13,981 nt of DNA, from positions 1 to 13,981 of the forward strand of contig JAICXZ010000020.1 in the NCBI GenBank assembly GCA_025934475.1, given 5' to 3'. The notes beneath the pieces are model-generated. The model ran no database searches, was not told the origin of the DNA, and saw nothing but the letters and a program-made list of their open reading frames with translations. The DNA comes from Mucilaginibacter sp. GTDB taxonomy: Bacteria > Bacteroidota > Bacteroidia > Sphingobacteriales > Sphingobacteriaceae. The position numbers were made by a program, and so were the translations under genes. Shown in pieces: positions 1 to 13,981 of the stretch (its first letter is position 1; each line of letters begins with the position of its first letter).

Positions 1-810
1 AACACTGCGCCGCATACACGTCTGGAAATTGCCAACGGTCCTAACGGTTATGATGGCTGGGGTGGTAATACACCACTGCAGAACCTTGTGGATGATTACG
101 AAATGAATAACGGTAAGATGATCACCGACCCAACTTCCGGTTACGATCCGCAGAACCCATATGTTAATCGCGACCCAAGGTTCTATGCTACTATCCTTTA
201 TAACAAGGCTCCTTACCGCGGTAGCACGGTAGATGTATTCTTACCAGGTGGCAAAGACAGTAACCAGGGACCTTCAAACTGGAATACCAGCTTGACCGGT
301 TACTATTTGCGGAAATTTATGAACGATGCATACCCGATCGATAACCCGTGGGCGGTTGCCGGTGCACAACCCTGGATCTACTTCCGTTACGCCGAGATAT
401 TGCTGAACTACGCTGAAGCACAAAACGAAGCCGCTGGTCCGGATGGAACAGTGTATGCAGCGATCAACGCTATTCGCAGCAGGTCTTCCGTGGCTATGCC
501 GGCATTGGCTGCAGGGCTCACGCAAGACCAGATGCGGACCGCTATTCGCGAAGAACGTCGCATAGAGTTGGCTTTCGAAGAGCACCGCTTCTACGATGTA
601 CGTCGCTGGAAAATAGCTATGACAACCGAAAATGTACCAGCATATGGGATGTCGGTTACAGTTAATGCTGCTAATCCGTCTGGCTATACCTATACTCAGA
701 AGACAGCGCTCGCCGGCCGTGCTTTCCAAACACAACATTACTGGCTGCCTATTCCGTTGGCTGAAATACAGGCCTCTAATGGGCAGCTTACCCAAAACCC
801 CGGTTATTAA
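1..810 (+). CDS. SusD/RagB-family outer-membrane glycan-binding lipoprotein (C-terminal part)
   Basis: The reading frame is already open at base 1 and continues for 269 codons to TAA, so this is the C-terminal half of a protein that is normally about 500-550 residues; signal peptide and N-terminus lie outside the window. SusD proteins sit on the cell surface as a lid on a SusC TonB-dependent channel and bind oligosaccharides for import. Family marks seen here are the helical stretch WIYFRYAEILLNYAEAQNEA (visible residues about 125-144), the basic/acidic block EERRIELAFEEHRFYDVRRWK-like region at about 184-204, and the typical ending YWLPIPLAEIQ...NPGY. A susC partner is expected just upstream, off the window. 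It precedes a GH5-GH2-GH35-galK cluster in the same direction, so it should bind the glycan those enzymes attack. The family call is firm; the ligand is inferred from neighbours. Confidence 0.95.
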   Translation, partial: NTAPHTRLEIANGPNGYDGWGGNTPLQNLVDDYEMNNGKMITDPTSGYDPQNPYVNRDPRFYATILYNKAPYRGSTVDVFLPGGKDSNQGPSNWNTSLTGYYLRKFMNDAYPIDNPWAVAGAQPWIYFRYAEILLNYAEAQNEAAGPDGTVYAAINAIRSRSSVAMPALAAGLTQDQMRTAIREERRIELAFEEHRFYDVRRWKIAMTTENVPAYGMSVTVNAANPSGYTYTQKTALAGRAFQTQHYWLPIPLAEIQASNGQLTQNPGY

Positions 811-817
811 TTGAATT

Positions 818-870
818 TGCGAAGTGGAATTGCCTGTGCTTTTCCACTTCGCATTTTGTTTCCTTCTGTT
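818..870 (+). terminator. Terminator-like hairpin between susD and GH5 gene
   Basis: A perfect 12-bp stem (818-829 with 842-853, arm core gcgaagtggaa) encloses a 12-nt loop and begins 7 nt after the susD stop. It is followed by a T-rich stretch (854-872) broken by a few G and C. This resembles a rho-independent terminator, perhaps partial, and would lower enzyme expression relative to SusCD. It could instead be an RNA-processing or stabilising hairpin. I saw no convincing TTTG / TAnnTTTG promoter between it and the next start codon at 900, which favours read-through over a separate transcript. Confidence 0.7.
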
Positions 871-899
871 TTATCTGCTTACCAAACCCGATATCTATT

Positions 900-2426
900 A
901 TGAGGAAATTAATCTTATTCGCCTTTGCAACCGCATTATTCATTGTGGGTTGTAAAAAGGATGCTGTAAAGCAAGTAACGACAAGCAGCACAACGACAAC
1001 AACAAGTACCAGCCCAGGAGGTTCGGTATCTGCCGGGGGCGTAAAAGCCCTGGCTTCAACACCTGCCAACGCTCTGGAAGGTGTAAACTGGGCGTGTACC
1101 GGCGATAATTTTGCTGACACCATCCTGGTACTAAGCGGCCTGACATCAGCGGATAGCTATTCGACCGTTACTGCAAAAACAAATTCAATTCTTACATCAC
1201 TGATAAGCAACACCGGCGCCAATACTATCCGGATCCCGGTTAATTATGCTACTACTTCACAATCGTGGTGGAATTCTTATACCGGGGTAATCGATGCTGC
1301 CACAGCTAAGGGGTTGAACGTGATCATTGGCTGCTGGGAAGGTAAATCATCCGAAGACGGTAAGATTGACAATACAACCCAGTTTTGGGCGATGTGGCAA
1401 ACGGTGGTCAACAAGTACGCCAGTAACTCAAAGGTTTACTTTGAAATATTTAATGAGCCTCACGGTTATTCGCTTACTGATTGGTCAAATATTTGTGTCC
1501 AGTGGCTTACTAATTATCCCAGCGTGCCGCAGGGCCATGTTTTGGTTGATGGCACCAGCTATGCCCAGGATGTGACCGGGGTAGGTGCTGATAGTCGTCT
1601 CACCAATTGCCTCTTGTCGATTCACGACTATACGTTTTTTACCAGCTCGTCACTTACGACGGCTTATTCCTGGGAAACAAGGCTTGCAGCCAATGTAGGC
1701 AACTACGCAAGTCGCACAGTACTTACCGAATTTGGCGTGACGATGAATAGCGGTGAGAATTTCACGGGGGCTATTGGCGGCAACGAAGATCAGGCCTATA
1801 TCCAGGGATTTACTAACCAGGTTAGGGCTACCGGCATGGGTAGCGTATACTGGCCGGGCATCCGCACCGGCGACAGCTATGCGATGGAAACCCTCCAGGG
1901 ATCGGGCAATAGCCTTACGCTTTCAAATAACAACGCTTCCGGCTTAAGCAGGTTGAAATATGGATGGGGAGTTGGAACAGGCGGTACCGATGTGTTTTAT
2001 TCAGGCGCTTATTATCGTTTCCTGAACATGAACAGCGGGCAAGCCATGGACGTGAACGGAGGATCGACGGCAAATGGTGCAAGCGTTATCCAATGGCCTC
2101 AAAATGGTGGCAACAACCAACAATGGGTCATTACGGATAACGGCAATGGTTATTATAAAATAACCAATCGCAACAGCGGATTGGCGCTTGATGTAAACGG
2201 TGGCTCGACTACGGCTGGAGCAACCATTATCCAATGGCCGTGGAACGGTGGTAATAACCAGCAATGGACGCTGACATCGACCGGGACTGGGATTTATAAA
2301 GTGATTAACCGCAACAGCGGAGATGTAGTGGATGTAACAGGGGCCTCCAAAACCAATGGCGCTAACGTTATCCAGTGGACCTGGAACGGGGGCTCTAACC
2401 AGCAATGGCAGGTGATACAGGAGTAG
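900..2426 (+). CDS. GH5-family glycanase with C-terminal ricin-type (CBM13-like) lectin domain, lipoprotein
   Basis: A 508-residue endo-acting glycoside hydrolase. Residues 1-17 form a lipoprotein signal with lipobox IVGC, so Cys18 is the lipidated residue, pointing to the outer membrane and probably the surface. A Ser/Thr-rich linker spans about 26-40. The GH5 TIM barrel covers about 58-355: acid/base Glu186 in IFNEPHG and nucleophile Glu277 in VLTEFG, both intact. Residues about 370-508 form a beta-trefoil with three 47-residue repeats, each with an IQW and a QQW motif, typical of galactose- or xylose-binding CBM13/ricin lectins. GH5 plus CBM13 is the layout of known beta-1,6-galactanases (subfamily GH5_16), and the neighbours are beta-galactosidases and galactokinase, so a galactanase is my best guess; an endoglucanase or mannanase remains possible. 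The start at 900 is fixed by the signal peptide. Confidence 0.88.
   Translation: MRKLILFAFATALFIVGCKKDAVKQVTTSSTTTTTSTSPGGSVSAGGVKALASTPANALEGVNWACTGDNFADTILVLSGLTSADSYSTVTAKTNSILTSLISNTGANTIRIPVNYATTSQSWWNSYTGVIDAATAKGLNVIIGCWEGKSSEDGKIDNTTQFWAMWQTVVNKYASNSKVYFEIFNEPHGYSLTDWSNICVQWLTNYPSVPQGHVLVDGTSYAQDVTGVGADSRLTNCLLSIHDYTFFTSSSLTTAYSWETRLAANVGNYASRTVLTEFGVTMNSGENFTGAIGGNEDQAYIQGFTNQVRATGMGSVYWPGIRTGDSYAMETLQGSGNSLTLSNNNASGLSRLKYGWGVGTGGTDVFYSGAYYRFLNMNSGQAMDVNGGSTANGASVIQWPQNGGNNQQWVITDNGNGYYKITNRNSGLALDVNGGSTTAGATIIQWPWNGGNNQQWTLTSTGTGIYKVINRNSGDVVDVTGASKTNGANVIQWTWNGGSNQQWQVIQE
2013..2423 (+). repeat. Three in-frame 141-bp repeats encoding the ricin-type beta-trefoil
   Basis: Units begin near 2013, 2154 and 2295, spaced exactly 141 bp (47 codons). 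Each codes for a Y(R/K)(F/I/V)-type opening, an N-S-G motif, a D-V-(N/T)-G motif, an IQW motif and a QQW ending. Codons differ between copies while the protein is well kept, so this is an old domain repeat held by selection, not a recent DNA duplication. Units 1 and 2 share DVNGGST, while unit 3 has DVTGASK, so the third sugar site may differ in affinity. Confidence 0.85.
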
Positions 2427-2456
2427 AACTGTGCATTTGTTATTAATTTTATTAAC

Positions 2457-4889
2457 ATGAGAACTAAAATATTGCCTTTGTTTTGCCTGCTATTGTCGCT
2501 GGTAATTACTGACCGGCTGCAAGCGCAGCAAAACAAAGGTTCTTTGCTGTTCGATGATGGATGGCTATTTCATAAAGGAGATATTTCGAACGGCGAAAAT
2601 GGCGGCACAAAAGGCACGCAATGGCGAAGCGTGCAATTGCCTCATGATTGGAGCATCGAAGGTCCCTTCAGCGATGAGTGGGCAAGTGCTACGGCTTATT
2701 TGCCGGGCGGCATTGGCTGGTATAAAAAGTCATTTACCGCGCCTGTAGGTTGGCGTGGTAAAAAAGTATTTATCAGCTTCGACGGGGTTTATAAGAACAG
2801 CGAGGTTTGGATCAACGGACATTACCTGGGTAAAAGACCCAATGGTTTTGTGCCTTTTGAGTATAACCTTTCACAATATCTCAATTTTGGCAAGAAGAAT
2901 CTGATCGCTGTTAAAGCCGATCACTCCGAATTTGCGGATTCGCGCTGGTACACAGGTTCGGGTATTTACCGGGACGTTTATCTGGTTGTAAAGAATCCGG
3001 TTTATGTGCAGCCATTCGATATTGCATTTTCTACACCGAAGGTTTCGGCAAAATCAGCCTCAATTAAGGTAAATCTTGATGTAACCAATGCAAATGCGAC
3101 CTCATCACGCGTAACATTAAAAATGCTTTTGGTTGATCCCAAAGGCAAAGTTGTGGTACAGGAGGAGCAAAACTTATCCACCAAACCGGGTTCAAATGCT
3201 GTTCAATTCCAGCATTCGATTTCAGACCCGCAATTATGGAGCGTCGATAATCCAAACTTATATCGCCTGCAAGTCTCGGTGATACAAAACGGGAAGGTGA
3301 TTGACGGGGAAAGCCAATCTGTCGGCATCCGGAGCATTCATTTTGATGCGGACAAAGGCTTTTTCCTGAATGGTGAAAACCTGAAACTAAAAGGCGTTTG
3401 TATCCATGATGATGCGGGTGCATTGGGCGTAGCCGTGCCGAGAGAAGTTTGGATTCGGCGATTGAAAATTCTAAAAGAAGGTGGCGTAAATGCTTTGCGC
3501 CTTAGCCATAACCCGCATGCGGCCTACCTGTACGATCTATGTGATCAGATGGGTTTCCTGGTGATGGATGAGGCATTTGACGAATGGGCAATGGGCAAAA
3601 ACAAATGGGTCAAAGGCTGGAATGTTGGTACACCATCAAAAGATGGTTATCACGAAGCTTTTAAAGAGTGGGCGCACCGCGATCTGGAAGCGATGATCAA
3701 GCGGGATCGCAATCATCCATCTATCATTCTTTGGAGTATTGGGAACGAGATCGATTATCCTAATGACCCATACTCGCACCCGGTACTTGATAGCGGCAAA
3801 AATCCGCAGATATACGGCAGGGGCTATTCGGCGAAGAATCCACCTGCGAGTGATATTACCGTCATCGCCAAAGATCTGGTTAAAACAGTAAAGGCTATCG
3901 ATACTACACGGCCGGTTACAGCCGCGCTGGCGGGTGTGGTTATGTCCAACCAGGTTGGGTACCCCGAGGTACTTGATGTGGTTGGCTATAATTACCAGGA
4001 GTATCGCTATAAAGAAGATCATCAGAAATATCCTAACCGCATTATCTACGGGAGCGAAAACGGTATGGCTCGCCAGGCGTGGGATGTGGTAGATACCAAT
4101 AAATATATCTTCGGCCAGTTTTTATGGACCGGAATTGATTACCTCGGCGAGGCCGGCCGATGGCCGCAACGGAGTAACGGCGCAGGCCTGATCGATTTGG
4201 CTGGATTTCAGAAACCGGAATACTATTATCGTCAAAGCTTCTGGGCAACCAAGCCGATGGCTTATTTGGGGGTAAAGAAAATTACCGAAGGCCAGGACAA
4301 CGGCATCTGGAGCCATCGCAATGTGCAACCCTTATGGAACTGGCCGGATGGCAGCAAGCTCAGGGTGGAGTGCTTTACCAACTGCAAAGAAGCCGAACTT
4401 TTCCTGAATGGTAAATCGCTGGGCAAGGTATTGAGACATACCAGTACAGCACATATCCCTGGCTGGAATGTCGATTACCAGGCTGGCGAGTTATCGGTAA
4501 AAGGTTATAACGATGGAAAGCTTGTCGCCAATTACGCTATAAAAACTTTCGGAGAAGCAGCCCTTATACAGGCTGTCCCCGATCAAACAAACTTCCTGAG
4601 GTCAGAGAAAGGCGTTTGCCAGGTCGAACTGCAAATTGCCGATCAGGATGGAGCCCCGGTTTACTCTGCAGAGAACGATATGAGTGTGAACATATCGGGC
4701 GATGCAGAGTTGCTGGGTCTTGAAAGCGGAAGCACCACCAGTCACGAAGATTACAAAGCCAATCACCGCCAGGTATTACACGGTAAATTGATTGCCTATA
4801 TCCAAACCAACGGGAAGCCCGGAAATATCATTATTCATTTTACTTCACCAAACCTCAAACCAGCATCAATCACATTAATTGTAAAATAA
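2457..4889 (+). CDS. GH2-family glycoside hydrolase, probable beta-galactosidase
   Basis: An 810-residue secreted exo-glycosidase. A Sec signal peptide occupies about residues 1-23 with cleavage likely after LQA, and there is no lipobox, so it should be periplasmic. Domains in order: GH2 sugar-binding jelly roll (about 28-180, including HDWSIEGPF and GGIGWYKKSF), Ig-like domain (about 185-292), TIM barrel (about 297-600), a DUF4982-type Ig domain (about 605-700, with VQPLWNWPDGSKLRV) and a last GH2 C-terminal domain (about 705-810). Acid/base Glu431 is in LWSIGNE and the nucleophile is probably Glu534 in YGSENG. The large Bacteroidota GH2 clade with this layout contains mostly beta-galactosidases, but also beta-glucuronidases and others, so the substrate is inferred from the GH35 and galK neighbours. 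It starts 30 bp after the GH5 stop and is probably co-transcribed. The start at 2457 is supported by the signal peptide. Confidence 0.9.
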   Translation: MRTKILPLFCLLLSLVITDRLQAQQNKGSLLFDDGWLFHKGDISNGENGGTKGTQWRSVQLPHDWSIEGPFSDEWASATAYLPGGIGWYKKSFTAPVGWRGKKVFISFDGVYKNSEVWINGHYLGKRPNGFVPFEYNLSQYLNFGKKNLIAVKADHSEFADSRWYTGSGIYRDVYLVVKNPVYVQPFDIAFSTPKVSAKSASIKVNLDVTNANATSSRVTLKMLLVDPKGKVVVQEEQNLSTKPGSNAVQFQHSISDPQLWSVDNPNLYRLQVSVIQNGKVIDGESQSVGIRSIHFDADKGFFLNGENLKLKGVCIHDDAGALGVAVPREVWIRRLKILKEGGVNALRLSHNPHAAYLYDLCDQMGFLVMDEAFDEWAMGKNKWVKGWNVGTPSKDGYHEAFKEWAHRDLEAMIKRDRNHPSIILWSIGNEIDYPNDPYSHPVLDSGKNPQIYGRGYSAKNPPASDITVIAKDLVKTVKAIDTTRPVTAALAGVVMSNQVGYPEVLDVVGYNYQEYRYKEDHQKYPNRIIYGSENGMARQAWDVVDTNKYIFGQFLWTGIDYLGEAGRWPQRSNGAGLIDLAGFQKPEYYYRQSFWATKPMAYLGVKKITEGQDNGIWSHRNVQPLWNWPDGSKLRVECFTNCKEAELFLNGKSLGKVLRHTSTAHIPGWNVDYQAGELSVKGYNDGKLVANYAIKTFGEAALIQAVPDQTNFLRSEKGVCQVELQIADQDGAPVYSAENDMSVNISGDAELLGLESGSTTSHEDYKANHRQVLHGKLIAYIQTNGKPGNIIIHFTSPNLKPASITLIVK

Positions 4890-4916
4890 TCACTCAGAAA
4901 ATTCTTCAAATTTTAT

Positions 4917-6740
4917 ATGCATAAATTGAAATATATCATTGCCTCGCTGTTAGTGCTGTGGGTAATAAGTGCGGGTGCGCAGGGAAGCAAGCATACATTT
5001 GAACTGGCCGACTCAGCATTCCTGCTCGACGGTAAGCCTTTTCAAATGATCAGCGGGGAGATGCATTACCCGCGGATACCTCGTGAAGCCTGGCGGGCAC
5101 GCATGAAAATGGCCAAAGCCATGGGCCTTAATACCATTGGTACCTATGTTTTCTGGAATTTGCACGAACCGCAAAAGGATCAGTTTGATTTCTCGGGGAA
5201 TAATGATGTTGCCGAGTTTGTAAAGATCGCAAAGGAGGAGGGGCTTTGGGTTATCATTCGCCCTAGCCCGTATATCTGTGCCGAATGGGAGTTTGGCGGC
5301 TATCCTTACTGGCTTCAGAACGAGAAGGGATTAATTGTGCGCAGTAAGGAACCACAATATTTAAAAGAATACGAAGCATATATCAAGGAGGTCGGCAAAC
5401 GGCTGGCGCCTTTACAGGTGAATCATGGCGGCAATATTTTGATGGTGCAGATAGAGAACGAATATGGCTCTTATGCTGCCGATAAAGAATACCTGGCTAT
5501 TAATCAAAAGATGTTTAAAGAAGCCGGCTTCGATGGTCTGCTTTATACCTGCGATCCGCCGGCCGATGTAGCCAATGGACATCTCCCGGGACTCCTTCCT
5601 GCTGTTAACGGGGTGGCCAGTCCTGCAACGGTAAAGCAGACTGTCAAGAAAAATCATGACGGCAAAGGGCCTTTCTTCATTGCCGAATGGTATCCTGCCT
5701 GGTTCGATTGGTGGGGAACAGCACATCATACCGTCCCGGCAGGGCAGTATTCCGGCCCGCTTGATTCGGTGCTGGCCGCGGGTATCTCCATCAACATGTA
5801 TATGTTTCACGGAGGTACCACCCGGGGATTTATGAATGGTGCCAATTTTAAAGACAACACGCCTTATGAACCGCAGATCAGCAGCTATGATTATGACGCA
5901 CCGCTTGACGAAGCCGGCAACCCAACGCCGAAGTTTTTTACCTTCAGGGATGTGATCAAAAAGCATTTGCCTGCCAGGCATACTTTGCCTGAGGTGCCTG
6001 CTAAAAAACCGGCAATCAGCATTCCCAATATTAAACTGACTGCCTCGGCACCTATACTCAGCAATTTGCCAAGCCCTAAAAACAGTTTGGAGCCGCTTAC
6101 TTTCGAGGATCTGCATCAGCCTTATGGTTTTGTTTTATATCGAACCAAGCTACAAGGAGGTAAGACCGGAACATTGCTTTTGGAGGGTTTAAGAGATTAT
6201 GCCGTAGTGATGGTAAATGGTAAACGTGTGGGTACACTTGACCGCCGCCTGAAAGAGGACAGTTTGGTACTGACATTGCCAAAGGGACAGGCTAGACTCG
6301 ATATTTTGGTGGAGAACCTTGGACGTATCAACTTTGGTAAATACCTGTTGCAAAACAAAAAGGGCCTCACCGGTAAGGTGCTTTTCGCCGGGAAAGAAGT
6401 AAAGCATTGGAGCATGTATGGTTTGCCGTTCAATAATACCGATGCCATTAAATACACCAGCACAGGGATCAATAGCCATCAGCCGGTGATTCTGAAAGGG
6501 ACCTTTGATGTGGATACCCTGGGCGATACTTACCTCGATATGCAGAACTGGGGCAAGGGCGTAGTTTGGATCAACGGGCACAATCTTGGCCGGTATTGGC
6601 GTGTAGGCCCGCAGCAAACCGTGTATGTGCCGGTGGAATGGCTGAAGAAAAACGGTAATGAGATTGTGGTACTTGAGTTATTACAGCCGCACAAAACCAT
6701 ATCTGCTATTTCGACACCAATACTTGATAAACTTCAATAA
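4917..6740 (+). CDS. GH35-family beta-galactosidase, secreted
   Basis: A 607-residue enzyme that removes terminal beta-linked galactose. The signal peptide covers about residues 1-21 (hydrophobic core IIASLLVLWVISAGA), with no lipobox, so it is likely periplasmic. The catalytic barrel (about 27-350) starts with the family hallmark SGEMHYPRIP; the GH35 signature GGNILMVQIENEYG carries acid/base Glu182 and FFIAEWYPAWFDWWG carries nucleophile Glu257. The C-terminal part (about 390-600) holds jelly-roll modules with the usual GH35 ending motif WGKGVVWINGHNLGRYW. Length fits the bacterial and animal-type GH35 group. It starts 27 bp after the GH2 stop. Having both GH2 and GH35 galactosidases suggests different linkages are handled, for example beta-1,3 versus beta-1,4 or beta-1,6, but linkage cannot be read from sequence. 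Confidence 0.95.
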   Translation: MHKLKYIIASLLVLWVISAGAQGSKHTFELADSAFLLDGKPFQMISGEMHYPRIPREAWRARMKMAKAMGLNTIGTYVFWNLHEPQKDQFDFSGNNDVAEFVKIAKEEGLWVIIRPSPYICAEWEFGGYPYWLQNEKGLIVRSKEPQYLKEYEAYIKEVGKRLAPLQVNHGGNILMVQIENEYGSYAADKEYLAINQKMFKEAGFDGLLYTCDPPADVANGHLPGLLPAVNGVASPATVKQTVKKNHDGKGPFFIAEWYPAWFDWWGTAHHTVPAGQYSGPLDSVLAAGISINMYMFHGGTTRGFMNGANFKDNTPYEPQISSYDYDAPLDEAGNPTPKFFTFRDVIKKHLPARHTLPEVPAKKPAISIPNIKLTASAPILSNLPSPKNSLEPLTFEDLHQPYGFVLYRTKLQGGKTGTLLLEGLRDYAVVMVNGKRVGTLDRRLKEDSLVLTLPKGQARLDILVENLGRINFGKYLLQNKKGLTGKVLFAGKEVKHWSMYGLPFNNTDAIKYTSTGINSHQPVILKGTFDVDTLGDTYLDMQNWGKGVVWINGHNLGRYWRVGPQQTVYVPVEWLKKNGNEIVVLELLQPHKTISAISTPILDKLQ

Positions 6741-6768
6741 TGTCCGTGAACCCTATGATCAGTAGCTT

Positions 6769-7929
6769 ATGTTCCCTGAATTACTAAAACACGAATTCGA
6801 GCGATTTTATAGTACTAAGCCCGCGGGGATTTATTTCTGCCCTGGTCGGGTGAACCTGATCGGCGAGCATATTGATTATAATGGTGGACTGGTAATGCCC
6901 TGCGCTATCAATATGGGCACTTTCCTGGTGATGGCGCCAAATACTTGCGGCAAGTTCAGGATACGCAGTCTTAATTTCGATGAGCACCTGGAGATACCGG
7001 TAGCCGACCGGTATAAAAAAATTGGCGGACTTTGGTACAACTATCCGCTGGGTATTATTGATCGCCTGGCGGTAGCTGGTAGTCGGCCGGGCGGGGTGGA
7101 TCTGCTATACTTCGGCAACCTGCCTATTGGTTCCGGGTTATCTTCATCGGCGTCCATCGAGGTGCTGACAGCCTTTGCCCTGAATGATTATTTCGGCCTG
7201 GGCTATGACCGTCTCGGGCTGGTTAAACTAGCTAAAGAGACCGAGAATCATTTTATCGGCGTCAATAGTGGCGTGATGGATCCCTTTGCGGTTGTGTTTG
7301 GCATGAAGGATATGGCCATGGTGCTTAACTGCCAGGACCTCACCTGTAAGCAGGTAAGCTTCGGGCTCGACGACCGCATCCTGGCTATTGTGAACAGCAA
7401 CAAACCGCATAATCTGGCGGAATCGAAATACAACGAACGAGTGCGCGAATGCAACGTCGCGCTGGGTTTGCTTAACCGGTATATAAGGGTCGAAAACCTT
7501 TGTCAGGTGACGCCCTGTCAGTTGGAGGCTTACAAAGACAGCATTCCTGATCAAACCATTTACAACCGGGCGCGTCACGTGGTTGAAGAAAACGAGCGCG
7601 TAAATAAAGCAGCGAAGTTGCTGAAGGAAAGCAACATCGGCGCCTTTGGTGAGCTGATGTATCAATCGCACCATTCGCTGAAAGAACTGTATGAAGTGAC
7701 TGGAATTGAACTGGACAGCATAGTCGAGTTCAGCCAGGGTTGGGAGGGTGTTATCGGCGCCCGCATGACCGGCGCCGGTTTTGGCGGCTGCGCTATAGCG
7801 TTGGTAGAGAAAGATGCCTTCCCCGCTTATTCCAATGCACTTATTGATTTTTATGAGGACCGTATCGGTTATAAGCCGTCGATCTACCAATGCGCGGTAA
7901 GCGATGGGGTGAATTGGCTGCGGTGTTAA
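6769..7929 (+). CDS. galK: Galactokinase (GHMP family)
   Basis: A 386-residue cytoplasmic kinase that phosphorylates alpha-D-galactose with ATP to galactose-1-phosphate, the first committed Leloir step. Seen motifs: the galactokinase signature GRVNLIGEHIDYNGG (residues 26-40), the ATP-binding loop LPIGSGLSSSASIE (118-131), the catalytic-base region SGVMDPF with Asp171, the SNKPHNLAESKYNERVREC block (about 210-228) and the GHMP C-terminal glycine motif GARMTGAGFGGCAIAL (330-345). Length is normal and there is no signal peptide. It starts 28 bp after the GH35 stop and closes the cluster; its presence is the best evidence that the glycan yields galactose. No galT, galE, mutarotase or galactose permease accompanies it in the window, so these must be elsewhere. 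Confidence 0.97.
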   Translation: MFPELLKHEFERFYSTKPAGIYFCPGRVNLIGEHIDYNGGLVMPCAINMGTFLVMAPNTCGKFRIRSLNFDEHLEIPVADRYKKIGGLWYNYPLGIIDRLAVAGSRPGGVDLLYFGNLPIGSGLSSSASIEVLTAFALNDYFGLGYDRLGLVKLAKETENHFIGVNSGVMDPFAVVFGMKDMAMVLNCQDLTCKQVSFGLDDRILAIVNSNKPHNLAESKYNERVRECNVALGLLNRYIRVENLCQVTPCQLEAYKDSIPDQTIYNRARHVVEENERVNKAAKLLKESNIGAFGELMYQSHHSLKELYEVTGIELDSIVEFSQGWEGVIGARMTGAGFGGCAIALVEKDAFPAYSNALIDFYEDRIGYKPSIYQCAVSDGVNWLRC

Positions 7930-8015: not shown

Positions 8016-8057
8016 TTCAAACAAATAGCCGGGCAAATGTCCGGCTGTCTGTTTGAA
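8016..8057. terminator. Long stem-loop between convergent galK and reductase gene, possible bidirectional terminator
   Basis: Arms 8016-8032 and 8041-8057 form a 17-position stem with 15 Watson-Crick pairs, one G-U-type pair and one mismatch, around the 8-nt loop gcaaatgt. The loop end is closed by agccgg/ccggct. There is no clean T-run on either side, so a stabilising or transcription-blocking hairpin is as likely as a textbook terminator. Its position between two convergent genes fits a shared 3'-end structure. Confidence 0.5.
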
Positions 8058-8241: not shown

Positions 8242-8805
8242 CTATTTCCTTATCTCATATAACAATTCCACCATTCCGTTTTTATAAGCTGTTACGCCTT
8301 TCAGGTGCAATGGATGTTCGTTTCCTATCTGGTCAAAAAATGGGGTCCCATTGCCCAGGATGATCGGAAGAATGGGCATTCTTATTTCATCGGCCAGGTT
8401 ATTGCGAAGGAAGTCTTTTACAAGTACCGCGCCGCCTACTACCCAAACATTGCTGTAGTTTGGTTTCAGGTGTTCGTTTACCAGTTGATGTAGGTCGCCG
8501 GAGTAAAGTTGAATGTTGGGTTTATTAATCGGCAGCTTTCGGTGGGATAGTACGATGGTGGGGACGTCGCCGTACGGCCAGCCGTAGGCTTTTGAAAGTT
8601 CGAGGGCATGTTCGTACGTGCGGGCGCCCATGATGTAGCAATCGACGGTTTTGAGAAAATCGGCAGCGTCATGGTCGGACATAGCTACGCCTTTTTCATA
8701 GTTGTCTGTTGTTTCGAACCACGAGACGCTGTTGTCTTTTTTGGCGATCATACCGTCGAGGCTTGATACCATGTGGATGGTTATTTTGAATGGATCCGTT
8801 GCCAT
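8242..8805 (-). CDS. Dihydrofolate reductase-like / RibD C-terminal domain reductase
   Basis: A 187-residue single-domain protein of the DHFR/RibD-C fold, expected to be a cytoplasmic NADPH-dependent reductase. Seen marks: the N-terminal strand and turn ITIHMVSSLDGMIA (residues 8-21), the nucleotide-site motif YIMGARTYE (57-65), VPTIVLSHRK (81-90), and the family's VWVVGGAVLVKDFL (120-133) followed by DEIRMPILPIILGNGTPFF. Length matches the stand-alone YwjB/YyaP-like group, whose substrates are mostly unknown; it is not a typical FolA, nor a complete riboflavin enzyme since the deaminase domain is missing. It faces galK and diverges from the methyltransferase gene, so it is not part of either PUL. 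The start at 8805 gives a compact N-terminus; a shorter start at Met12 would cut the first strand. Confidence 0.85.
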   Translation of the reverse strand: MATDPFKITIHMVSSLDGMIAKKDNSVSWFETTDNYEKGVAMSDHDAADFLKTVDCYIMGARTYEHALELSKAYGWPYGDVPTIVLSHRKLPINKPNIQLYSGDLHQLVNEHLKPNYSNVWVVGGAVLVKDFLRNNLADEIRMPILPIILGNGTPFFDQIGNEHPLHLKGVTAYKNGMVELLYEIRK

Positions 8806-10092: not shown

Positions 10093-10674
10093 GTGGATAA
10101 TAAACTCATCGATGAAAACGCGATACGTCGGCTTATTGCCGGCGATGAATCTGTATTCACGGCGGTTTATGAATTGTATAGCGAAAAAGTCTACCGGCTG
10201 GCTTATCGATTTTTAAAAGATAAAGAGCAAAGCGAAGAAATTGTCCAGGAAACCTTCATCAATTTTTGGCTGGGCAGGGAAAAGCTTGATCCTGCAGGCG
10301 ACTTGTGGCTGTATCTCTATGTGATTTCAAAGCGCCTGTCATTAAACGCCTTAAGGAAAATCGGCAGATCATCGGTTTTGATTGAGAAACTTTTACAGCA
10401 GATAAGCGACCTTCAAAATAACACTGAAGAATTTATTATTACCCATGACCTGGAGCAATACATCGAAAAAGCCATCGATAAGCTCCCGCACCAGCAGCAA
10501 CTGGTATTTAAACTGAGCAGGATTGAAGGTTTATCGCATAAAGAGATCGCTGAGAAGTTGCAGATATCGCCCAACACCGTAAAGAACCACATGGTTGAGG
10601 CGTTGAAAACCCTGAAAAAACACCTGAAATACGCCGATTTTTGCTGTCTGGCATTTTTGTTAATCTATTTTTAA
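10093..10674 (+). CDS. ECF-family RNA polymerase sigma factor of the PUL/FecI type
   Basis: A 193-residue ECF sigma factor. Region 2 covers about residues 22-90 (YELYSEKVYRLAYRFL, then EEIVQETFINFWLGRE, then YLYVISKRLSLNALRK) and region 4 about 125-177, with the helix-turn-helix LSHKEIAEKLQISPNTVKNH. It ends in a hydrophobic tail, as many Bacteroidota members do. The start is GTG at 10093; the frame is open back to 10051 but has no ATG there, and this start gives the family's usual N-terminus. It should be held by the FecR protein encoded 95 bp downstream and, when freed, transcribe the susC-type gene that follows. A T-run directly follows the stop (from 10675) without a strong hairpin. Confidence 0.93.
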   Translation: MDNKLIDENAIRRLIAGDESVFTAVYELYSEKVYRLAYRFLKDKEQSEEIVQETFINFWLGREKLDPAGDLWLYLYVISKRLSLNALRKIGRSSVLIEKLLQQISDLQNNTEEFIITHDLEQYIEKAIDKLPHQQQLVFKLSRIEGLSHKEIAEKLQISPNTVKNHMVEALKTLKKHLKYADFCCLAFLLIYF

Positions 10675-10769: not shown

Positions 10770-11984
10770 ATGCAACAAGCCCGGCTTAAACGCCTGTTAG
10801 CGGAGTATTTTAATAACTCGATAAGCAGCACAGACTGCGAAGAACTGCTAACCTATTTAAGTTCAGCAGATCCGGTTGAGCTGGACGAGCTGATCGATAT
10901 AGAATTTGCAGCGTTGGATGAAGGCCCTGAGTTTAAGGGCCAACAATCGCAGGATGTGTTGAGCCGTATTAAAGCAGACCCGCGCTTTAATCAGCCTGCT
11001 CACGACGATCAGGAAGACAAACCTAAAGTCATCAAATTTTACCAGCGCCGTTTCGTGCAGGTCGCCGCGGCGATATTAGTCTTCTTCATCGCCGGTTTGG
11101 CGGTTTTCAATAACAGAAAAGCAATAACAGGCAGTAAACTCGCTAAAAATAACAAACCTGCCGCTATCGTTCCCGGCAGCAATAAAGCCATCTTGACCGT
11201 CTCGGATGGTAAGACTATCGTTTTGGATGCAGCTGCCAACGGCCTGGTCGCCAGAACTGGCGCGGGCGAAGTTCTGAAAACACAGCGCGGTCAGCTTGTC
11301 TATAAAGACAAAGCTTCAAATAATAGTGCGGCGGCTGTAGCCAATGTTGAATACAACACCTTAACGACTCCGCGGGGTGGCGAATACCAATTGGTTTTGC
11401 CCGATGGAACTAAAGTCTGGCTTGACGCTGCATCATCCATCACCTATCCGGTTGCTTTTACGGGCAATTCCAGGCGGGTTAAACTCACTGGCCAGGGTTA
11501 TTTTGAGGTGGCCAAGAACAAGGAAAAACCGTTTTATGTCGACGTCAATCAATCTGAGATCAAAGTACTCGGTACGCATTTCAATATATCAGCCTATGAT
11601 GATGACGGCCGGAATACTACCACTTTGCTGGAAGGATCTGTAGAAGTTACCAACAACAATAAGGTGGCTATGTTAAAGCCCGGGCAGCAGGCCATAATTG
11701 TTAAAGGGTCAGATAATATAGCCGTTTCAGAAGCCGACATCGAAGGTGCCATGGCCTGGAAGAATGGTTATTTCATATTTAATGATGACGACATCAGGGG
11801 CATCATGCGTAAAGTTTCCCGCTGGTATGATGTCGATGTTGACTTTCAGCGCGATTTTAGTGACCAGCATTTTGGTGGTACTTTCTATCGTTCAAAAAGC
11901 ATCAATGAGCTTTTGGACCATTTCCAAAAGGTCGGAAATCTGCACTTTAAAGTTTCAGGAAGGAGGATAGTAGTTATGGATTAG
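10770..11984 (+). CDS. FecR-family anti-sigma factor / signal transducer
   Basis: A 404-residue inner-membrane protein. The cytoplasmic N-terminal part (1-94) would bind the sigma factor; one membrane helix lies at about 95-114 (VQVAAAILVFFIAGLAVF). The periplasmic part has the FecR domain at about 196-294, with the hallmark TPRGGEYQLVLPDGTKVWLD and the block LTGQGYFEVAKNKEKPFYV, and a C-terminal DUF4974 domain at about 325-402 with the WKNGYFIFND opening and FGGTFYRSKSINELLDHF. It is expected to sense contact with the STN domain of the SusC protein encoded next and to release the sigma factor when ligand is imported. Length and order of domains are normal. The start at 10770 gives the typical LLAEYFNNSIS... 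N-terminus. It lies 95 bp after the sigma gene and is probably co-transcribed. Confidence 0.95.
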   Translation: MQQARLKRLLAEYFNNSISSTDCEELLTYLSSADPVELDELIDIEFAALDEGPEFKGQQSQDVLSRIKADPRFNQPAHDDQEDKPKVIKFYQRRFVQVAAAILVFFIAGLAVFNNRKAITGSKLAKNNKPAAIVPGSNKAILTVSDGKTIVLDAAANGLVARTGAGEVLKTQRGQLVYKDKASNNSAAAVANVEYNTLTTPRGGEYQLVLPDGTKVWLDAASSITYPVAFTGNSRRVKLTGQGYFEVAKNKEKPFYVDVNQSEIKVLGTHFNISAYDDDGRNTTTLLEGSVEVTNNNKVAMLKPGQQAIIVKGSDNIAVSEADIEGAMAWKNGYFIFNDDDIRGIMRKVSRWYDVDVDFQRDFSDQHFGGTFYRSKSINELLDHFQKVGNLHFKVSGRRIVVMD

Positions 11985-12002
11985 TTTATACTCTCTCATG
12001 AC

Positions 12003-12079
12003 GGTTATCCGGAAAAAAATTAACCAGGAGCGTTCGTACCGCCCCTGGTTATAAGCCAAAGGCTTAATGCCGGGTAATC
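12003..12079 (+). promoter_or_regulatory. Predicted three-stem junction RNA in the susC leader
   Basis: On the plus strand an outer stem (12003-12012 with 12070-12079; 10 pairs, two of them G-U) encloses two hairpins: 12021-12032 with 12040-12051 (8 bp, one mismatch, 3 bp, 7-nt loop ttcgtac) and 12052-12057 with 12061-12066 (perfect 6 bp, 3-nt loop aaa). The unit ends 45 nt before the susC start codon. There is no T-run downstream, so it is not a plus-strand terminator. It could be a cis-acting leader structure, or the complement of the antisense RNA listed separately. Confidence 0.5.
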
Positions 12080-12115
12080 AAACCAATTGCGACTTAGACA
12101 ATCAATTATTAACCT
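12013..12115 (-). ncRNA. Candidate ~100-nt antisense RNA against the susC leader
   Basis: Read on the minus strand, a promoter-like site at 12151-12122 would start RNA near 12115, and a hairpin (12051-12044 with 12028-12021, plus 3 inner pairs) followed one base later by seven T (complement of 12019-12013) would end it. The product would be about 100 nt and fully complementary to the susC 5' leader. In Bacteroides, PULs with ECF sigma/anti-sigma pairs are known to carry such cis-encoded RNAs (DonS type) that repress the susC gene. The ends are estimates and expression is unproven. Confidence 0.45.
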
Positions 12116-12121
12116 AACACT

Positions 12122-12151
12122 CAAATGTATAAAATTTTATCAGATTTTAAA
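12122..12151 (-). promoter_or_regulatory. Candidate minus-strand promoter over the susC start codon
   Basis: The minus strand reads TTTA (complement of 12148-12151), an 18-base spacer, then TACATTTG (complement of 12122-12129), a full match to TAnnTTTG; the -33 element matches 3 of 4 bases of TTTG. The -7 element overlaps the susC ATG at 12125, so part of the match is forced by the coding sequence ATGTAt. Confidence 0.4.
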
Positions 12152-13981
12152 GGGGGAAGCATGCGCTGTCGCCTTTATAAACCCCTGCTCGTCATGAAGC
12201 TAACCCTGTTTTTGCTGACAGCGTCCTTTCTGCAATTATCCGCGGCAACATTTGCCCAGAAGGTTACCCTAAAGGTTAAAAATGCCAGCATCAGACAAGT
12301 GTTTGAAAAAATACAGGCTGAAACCAATTACGATTTTCTGTATACCGTAGAAGACCTGAAAGACACGCACAAGGTGACGCTTAACGTGGCAGATATGCCG
12401 CTGAAAAATGCGCTGGATATTTGCTTCCGGGATCAGCCTGTAACCTACACTATATCAAATACCAGCATCCTGATCACCAAAAAAGCGCTCGAAGCTGAAC
12501 ATGCGGTGCAACAGGTAACTATTACCGGCTTAGTAACCGATACTGCAAACCTGTCATTGCCCGGAGTCACGGTAAGAGAAAAGGGTACTAATAATGCCAC
12601 CGTCACGGATGCCAAAGGCAAATATTCCATTACCGTTGCCGATAACGCTACGTTGGAATTTTCTTTCATCGGCTATACGACCACGAGCATACCTGTGTCC
12701 GGCAGCCCGACGATCAATGTGCGCCTAAAAGAAACGCCTACCAACCTTAATGAGATTGTGGTAGTGGGATACGGTACGCAAAAACGCTCTAATATCAATG
12801 GCGCCGTTAGTACCGTTGGCGCCAAAGACATAGGTAGCAAGCCGAACATGAATACATTTCAATCATTGCAGGGGGAATCGCCCAACCTGGTTATCCAGCA
12901 GCCGGTGCTTGATCCCGGCGCCACACCTGTTGTTAATATCCGGGGCGTAGGGACAACCGGCGATAACTCGCCCCTGGTTGTTATTGACGGTATCGTTATG
13001 CAGGGCCTGGGTAATCTTGCTACGCTGAATCCTAATGATATCGAGAATGTCACTATTCTTAAGGATGCCGGTTCGGCAGCCATCTATGGTTCCCGTTCCG
13101 CTAATGGCGTCATCCTTATTACTACCAAGAGCGGTAAACTGCACCAAAAAGCAACTGTTAATTACAATGGCAACTATGGTGTTCAAGTTCCAGATATACT
13201 GGTTCATAAGGTGGATGCGGCAGATAATGCCTACTACAAAAATGAAGCACTGGTGAATTCGGGACTGCCACCGGCTTATACACCCGATCAAATACAGGCT
13301 ATAGCCGCTCAGGGCCGTGGCACCTGGGATATCAACCACTTATTGTACGATGCCCCAATGACCTCGCAAAATGTTAACGTAACCGGGGGAGGCGAAAATA
13401 CATCATATTTTGTGGGCGCCGGCTACCAAAACCAGCTGAGCAACTTTGTTGGCAACGGCGGTTCAGGCGACAAGTTTGGCTATCAGAAGTACAATCTGCG
13501 CATAAACGAATCAACGGTGGTTGGGAATTTCAAATTCAATGCCATCTTGAATTATACCAAGAGCCGTAACAAGACAAATGCCTCGAATGATAATAATATT
13601 TTTGCCGATGCCAATCGTGTGCCGGCCAACTACAGCTGGCAGGACGCTCAGGGCAATTACCTGACAAACCCCGTGTCGTCGCAATTTAACCAGTTGGCCA
13701 TTTTGAAAAACGGTGGCTATAACCAGTTTGATGGCGACGAAATATTTGGCAACTTAAATGGTACATTAACCATCACTAAGGGCCTTACGCTGACCGGCGT
13801 TTTTGGCGGAACGCTGGATAACAACGGTAATTTCTACCGCGATGTAGAGCAGCATTATTTGCCGCAAGGAGTTTCGGGCGACGACCGTACGGTGGCGGAT
13901 AACAATGCCAAAACATCCATCTTTAATACCCAGGCTTACCTGGATTATACCAGAGCCTTCAACAAACATCACCTGCATGGC
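12125..13981 (+). CDS. SusC/RagA-family TonB-dependent outer-membrane transporter with STN domain (N-terminal part)
   Basis: The frame runs 619 codons from ATG at 12125 to the window edge without a stop; family members are about 1000-1150 residues, so roughly half is present. A long N-terminal signal region (about 1-45, core KLTLFLLTASFLQLSAATFAQ-like) precedes an STN signalling domain (about 47-118), a carboxypeptidase-regulatory-like beta-sandwich (about 131-203), and the plug (about 208-335) with NEIVVVGYGTQKRSNINGAVS-type start, VVIDGI and KDAGSAAIYGSRSANGVI. The rest is the start of the barrel. It imports an oligosaccharide using TonB energy. The STN domain and the sigma-fecR pair just upstream mean it probably also signals ligand arrival to FecR. 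The start choice fits the MYK...R...LLVMKL pattern of related proteins. Substrate unknown, since the enzymes of this locus lie outside the window. Confidence 0.95.
   Translation, partial: MYKILSDFKGGSMRCRLYKPLLVMKLTLFLLTASFLQLSAATFAQKVTLKVKNASIRQVFEKIQAETNYDFLYTVEDLKDTHKVTLNVADMPLKNALDICFRDQPVTYTISNTSILITKKALEAEHAVQQVTITGLVTDTANLSLPGVTVREKGTNNATVTDAKGKYSITVADNATLEFSFIGYTTTSIPVSGSPTINVRLKETPTNLNEIVVVGYGTQKRSNINGAVSTVGAKDIGSKPNMNTFQSLQGESPNLVIQQPVLDPGATPVVNIRGVGTTGDNSPLVVIDGIVMQGLGNLATLNPNDIENVTILKDAGSAAIYGSRSANGVILITTKSGKLHQKATVNYNGNYGVQVPDILVHKVDAADNAYYKNEALVNSGLPPAYTPDQIQAIAAQGRGTWDINHLLYDAPMTSQNVNVTGGGENTSYFVGAGYQNQLSNFVGNGGSGDKFGYQKYNLRINESTVVGNFKFNAILNYTKSRNKTNASNDNNIFADANRVPANYSWQDAQGNYLTNPVSSQFNQLAILKNGGYNQFDGDEIFGNLNGTLTITKGLTLTGVFGGTLDNNGNFYRDVEQHYLPQGVSGDDRTVADNNAKTSIFNTQAYLDYTRAFNKHHLHG

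Follow-up and report, generated by a model that had tools for sequence, protein, structure and literature searches.

Where a sigma/anti-sigma pair governs a PUL, its regulation is usually regarded as a matter of proteins. In Bacteroides, DonS-type RNAs accompany PULs that have ECF sigma/anti-sigma pairs. The locus described here, a 140-nt gap between fecR and a susC-like gene of a Mucilaginibacter sp., raises the question of whether a cis-antisense RNA of this kind also lies opposite a susC start outside the gut Bacteroides, as a sequence-only reading of the window (the whole stretch of 13,981 nt that was analysed) had proposed. The comparative evidence points to a real and conserved antisense RNA gene, and we think it probable that the locus is a DonS-like cis-antisense sRNA gene of ~104 nt which most likely keeps susC low.

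The second sugar cluster of the window, which contains the gap, is described in Table 1. The first (1-7929) comprises the end of a SusD gene, a GH5 gene with ricin-type lectin domains, GH2 and GH35 genes and a galactokinase-like gene, a content pointing to galactose-containing glycans. A fair minus-strand terminator at 8027-8046, between the galactokinase-like gene (plus strand) and a RibD_C-domain gene (8242-8805, minus strand), fits the end of the latter.

Table 1. Genes and predicted RNA features around the fecR-susC gap, numbered by position in the window.
Feature	Position	Strand	Remarks
ECF-type sigma factor gene	10093..10674	+	193 aa, GTG start as listed; Pfam Sigma70_r4_2, Sigma70_r2, Sigma70_ECF
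fecR anti-sigma factor gene	10770..11984	+	404 aa; Pfam FecR, FecR_C
susC-like TonB-dependent receptor gene	12125..13981	+	runs past window end; Pfam STN, CarbopepD_reg_2, Plug
Predicted antisense small RNA	12014..12117	-	~104 nt; both ends inferred; no ATG within it
-7 promoter element TACATTTG	12122..12129	-	overlies susC start codon (12125)
Stem P1, 5′ arm	12112..12118	-	at predicted 5′ end of RNA
Stem P1, 3′ arm	12069..12075	-	pairs with 12112..12118
Hairpin P2	12081..12107	-	10 pairs (fold of window sequence)
Small hairpin	12052..12066	-	6 pairs; sequence poorly conserved; outside consensus structure
Terminator hairpin P3	12021..12051	-	12 pairs
Seven-T run (A7 on plus), terminator end	12013..12019	-	one base past P3

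Read along the minus strand, the gap presents TACATTTG (12129-12122), a leader of ~70 nt, the 12-pair hairpin (12051-12021) and T7 (12019-12013), in that order. The perfect TAnnTTTG element and the hairpin with seven T claimed for this strand are both in place, and the same hairpin on the plus strand indeed has no T-run behind it; on the strand to be transcribed, a stable GC-rich stem leads into a T-run, as in an intrinsic terminator. Placing the -7 box at -12 to -5, after PMC9723704 (partial text), moves the predicted start slightly, from near 12115 to ~12117, and gives an RNA of ~104 nt. This RNA would be complementary to most of the sequence between fecR and susC, so that the proposed coverage of the whole region from hairpin to susC holds except for the last 8 nt before the start codon, where the predicted RNA stops. 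As RNA, the minus strand folds at -35.1 kcal/mol (z -3.64; 0 of 200 shuffles as good) and the plus strand at -25.2 kcal/mol (z -2.90); one P3 pair is G.U on minus and an A.C mismatch on plus. The window contains 18 terminator-like sites, and none has more pairs than P3; their number is not above shuffles (mean 15.5, sd 3.8), and P3 is therefore distinguished by its strength and conservation rather than by the number of such sites. Rfam had no match in the window, none in 11950-12200 at E<=10 and none in 12 relatives.

Conservation was assessed in fecR-susC gaps collected through FecR relatives from two sources: 100 genomes of the genus, of which 88 matched at E<=1e-60 (the loci used being the 30 listed), and named genomes (best 80 of 158), mainly Mucilaginibacter and Pedobacter, with Parapedobacter, Solitalea, Dyadobacter, Chitinophaga, Niastella and others. 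These gave 110 gaps, 92 of them distinct and 90 of at least 60 nt; the shorter ones, a common gap of L084 and L091 and that of L098, were excluded. Selection went by how closely FecR resembles that of the window, and the set accordingly leans towards close relatives, Mucilaginibacter standing in the titles of 29 of the 80 named loci. With terminators called at -12 kcal/mol or better, 71 of the 90 distinct gaps carry one on the minus strand and two on the plus strand; the rate in dinucleotide shuffles of the gaps is 2.5%, and other codirectional gaps of the same loci, taken as controls, yield 2/61 on minus and 2/61 on plus. The upstream end of the hairpin lies a median of 104 nt from the start codon, while the 71 terminator-bearing gaps span 108 to 282 nt, and the predicted RNA is 84-123 nt long (median 103, n = 62 gaps; both ends predicted). 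Relatives that keep the hairpin but have lost the A-run or the -7 element had been named as evidence against an antisense RNA. This was found in part: 17 of the 90 gaps have a hairpin (score >=22) with no called terminator, but 14 of these 17 retain TAnnTTTG. Two of the 17, L070 and L104, are doubtful as hairpins. The 17 belong to the 19 gaps with no called terminator, which include both M. lappiensis loci (L046, L048), where the T-run is broken.

The promoter element is conserved as well. CAAANNTA, which is TAnnTTTG on the minus strand, was counted if its first letter fell between -12 and +10 relative to the susC start, and was found in 76 of the 90 gaps vs 1 of 199 control starts (other gene starts of the same loci). 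The earliest ATG in frame was taken as the susC start; for L071 and L076 this is probably 24 nt too early, and correcting it would turn 76 into 78. Relative to the ATG the element takes two registers, -3 in 58/90 and -7 in 18/90 gaps, and in the -7 register most of CAAANNTA is upstream of the ATG, so the start codon does not force it; the caveat that the -7 match owes part of its letters to that codon is thereby answered. The near -33 element that had been proposed did not hold up, as TTG at spacings of 18, 19 and 20 occurs 1, 1 and 4 times in the 76 relatives vs a mean of 2.1 per position. Of the two Bacteroidota sigma-A promoter motifs, the -7 box TAnnTTTG is therefore present and the -33 TTTG is not; this motif could also not be identified in Flavobacterium johnsoniae (PMC7366714, partial text). 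Among 77 named loci counted by genus with hand-typed labels, the terminator is present in 59 and the -7 element in 63. FecR-type SusC proteins, both here (12125-12196) and in relatives, have an N-terminal stretch (MYK.. or MK..) ~20-30 residues ahead of the MKLT-like signal-peptide start, which is in frame in the loci printed. The antisense promoter overlaps the same DNA, so each may limit how far the other can change.

An alignment of 25 minus-strand sequences, from 53 representatives of 81 candidates and mostly from Sphingobacteriales, gave a three-stem consensus, with P1 starting at the predicted 5′ end, then P2, and P3 as the terminator. Pairing is kept in 95.1% of alignment cells, vs 29-47% in slid versions, and changes on both sides occur in 15 of 24 pairs, a number reached by 0 of 500 shuffles. 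For P1 and P2 together, both-sided changes with pairing kept were found in 6 of 13 pairs, and P1 partners score 18.8 vs 17.4 when swapped (sd 0.31) and 16.0 in letter shuffles. Duplex energies for trans pairing between paralogues were calculated with no shuffle control and were not used. An inverted repeat of the ATTATCTG...CAGATAAT type surrounds the hairpins in many Mucilaginibacter loci (here 12002-12012 with 12070-12080), its left half lying outside the predicted RNA end. Tried as a plus-strand stem, it has balanced wobbles (134 G.U to 143 A.C; interior 105 to 101); such a stem is possible, and so are a protein site and a place within the susC promoter. The plus-strand loop of the 12021-12051 hairpin starts with TT in many relatives, which could be relevant if the sense transcript covers the hairpin and a loop-loop contact starts pairing.

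A covariance model (R1) was then used to follow the RNA among genomes, with stricter filters and few candidates scored per genome in searches over more than 40 genomes. It matched in 102 of 151 genomes sampled at the level of the order (the listed ones are all of the same family as the window), at up to 11 places per genome and at 8 in Mucilaginibacter sp. SMC90. In a sample drawn across the phylum it matched in 6 of 247 genomes, of which two represent other families of the class. These searches carried no bias as to position. All 42 inspected hits at E<=0.01 (L119, L121-L157, L158-L161), of which at least 7 are model members, lie between fecR and susC and antisense to susC, the contig of L157 ending soon past the susC start; the sole weaker hit inspected (L120, E 0.62) adjoins neither gene. 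In the complete genome of SMC90, 30 fecR loci (the best 30 of 52 FecR_C matches, 11 of the 52 being receptors in frames of at least 988 aa) carry 25 minus terminators (L205, whose start is probably misplaced, included), one plus terminator and 22 -7 elements. Among the best 30 of 136 receptor matches in SMC90, all seven TonB receptors with fecR upstream have both terminator and -7 element, and the 23 lacking fecR upstream have one of each (Fisher 3.9e-6). In the genome from which the window comes, the three other evaluable fecR-susC gaps show terminators of -19.1, -18.1 and -18.3 on minus (plus at best -2.3), with a perfect -7 element in one and an element one letter off in two; a fourth locus, L112, is cut off where its contig stops. 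Two of ten evaluable loci from other families of the class (L186, L187) reach -12, the terminator of L187 lying 246 nt from the ATG; L163 (-10.3) and L166 (-11.1) come near it on minus but are at least as strong on plus (-11.6, -13.3). In other classes, 0 of 16 evaluable loci reach a -12 terminator on the minus strand.

How else could these signals arise? That a chance hairpin met a chance promoter match might be suspected from the number of terminator-like sites in the window, which is that of shuffled sequence, but conservation on the minus strand (71/90 terminators, 76/90 -7 elements) and the controls (2/61, 1/199, 1/23) refute it, and we give it practically no credence. More substantial, though still improbable, is the proposal of a plus-strand function, in which the element is a structured leader of susC or a signal for processing and the minus-strand signals are by-products. 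Retention of the hairpin in 17 of the 19 gaps that have no called minus terminator would suit such an element, as would the outer inverted repeat, whose own partners score 19.4 vs 18.0 when swapped (sd 0.35). Wobble pairs were compared between strands; strand counts from the structure predicted on the minus strand are biased by that prediction and were set aside. In P1 the ratio of 176 G.U to 55 A.C fits either strand, since letter shuffles give 174 to 75 and the excess thus says nothing on strand. Over all P3 pairs the ratio is 171 to 43, with 175 to 87 expected, so that G.U is near composition. The interior wobbles are the telling count for P3: in 83 hairpins, a stem finder giving G.U and A.C equal scores found 109 G.U vs 8 A.C on minus, against ~2:1 from composition. 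The consensus folds at -28.4 on minus vs -11.9 on plus (RNAalifold), each of the 25 aligned sequences folds better on minus, and plus terminators are confined to 2 of 90 gaps. A T-run and a TAnnTTTG element would, moreover, serve no purpose on the plus strand.

The alternative to which we allow the most room, while still thinking it unlikely, accepts that the antisense RNA is made but denies regulation by pairing: opposing transcription alone might interfere with the ECF promoter, or the RNA might be a tolerated by-product with a terminator that protects fecR. Conservation of promoter and terminator fits this proposal, the susC start codon lies outside the RNA, and some antisense starts in Bacteroides are considered spurious by the authors who reported them (PMC7366714, partial text). 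Against it stand the both-sided changes by which P1 and P2 keep their pairing, a constraint that bare transcription does not need.

A DonS-type antisense RNA is thus favored by position, length, -7 element, minus-only terminator, linkage to fecR-type susC and conservation. DonS and other PUL cis-antisense RNAs of B. fragilis and B. thetaiotaomicron (Cao et al., 2016, as cited in PMC7366714, PMC10994844, PMC11697453 and PMC9723704, partial texts) are likewise short and opposite the start of a susC-like gene, and the sequence here places the predicted RNA antisense to the 5′ end of a susC homologue. The 78-128 nt of the DonS family (PMC7366714, in part) encompass the 84-123 nt between the predicted ends found here. 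Many copies per genome are a further likeness, with PUL antisense RNAs at 15 PULs in B. fragilis (PMC9723704, partial text) and 32 in B. thetaiotaomicron (PMC10994844, partial text). The likeness is one of layout, position and length, and the lineages differ, being here Mucilaginibacter, Pedobacter, Chitinophaga, Dyadobacter and others. DonS has been demonstrated to repress its PUL (PMC7366714, PMC11697453, partial texts), by a mechanism that PMC11697453 describes as unknown; for the predicted RNA here, repression would be the most likely role. Some antisense-PUL pairs of B. thetaiotaomicron correlate positively (PMC10994844, partial text), which counts against a reading of repression. The multicopy FopS sRNAs of B. 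thetaiotaomicron are similar in being paralogous, having sigma-A promoters and acting at susC starts; FopS-10 binds beside the start codon and blocks susC translation (PMC11697453, partial text). However, FopS RNAs are ~65-70 nt, mostly intergenic (9/14) and trans-acting according to the same excerpts, while each predicted RNA here is encoded opposite the susC gene that it would act on. Antisense RNAs were reported in Flavobacterium psychrophilum, where DonS-like work is mentioned as a prospect only (PMC9723704, partial text). For Mucilaginibacter, Pedobacter and Chitinophaga, our literature search, which covered openly available journal papers, brought up no description of RNAs of this kind, and the new part would be a DonS-like RNA in lineages where that search found none.

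Assuming a DonS-like RNA that keeps susC low, the housekeeping sigma factor would start transcription at the TAnnTTTG overlapping the susC start codon, and the antisense RNA would end at the intrinsic terminator behind fecR, as anatomy and conservation suggest, the terminator shielding fecR from antisense transcription. While FecR holds the ECF sigma factor, susC would be held low: the RNA may pair with the leader of susC immediately before the start codon and cause an initiation block or cleavage by RNase III, and collision of opposing polymerases could be a second route to low susC. Once substrate frees the ECF sigma factor, strong sense transcription would presumably cross the antisense promoter and silence it. 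A broader proposal, which we offer tentatively and hold to be possible rather than probable, is that of an old, structured P1-P2-P3 antisense family on most ECF/FecR-controlled susC genes of Sphingobacteriales and their neighbours. With the promoter within the susC start, sense transcription by ECF and antisense transcription by sigma-A would shut each other out, and each PUL might thus be a two-state switch. The tens of paralogues per genome, having a common 5′ sequence, may even cross-talk in trans in the manner of FopS.

The analysis provides a covariance model where Rfam has no match, and a single genome yields predictions of promoter, ends and structure for tens of RNAs (25 of the 30 fecR loci read in SMC90). 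Since the same arrangement occurs beside many related genes in soil bacteria, an RNA switch class of gut Bacteroides may reach much further, and if most such PULs of soil Bacteroidota carry an antisense RNA, a second regulatory layer would have been missed by annotation.
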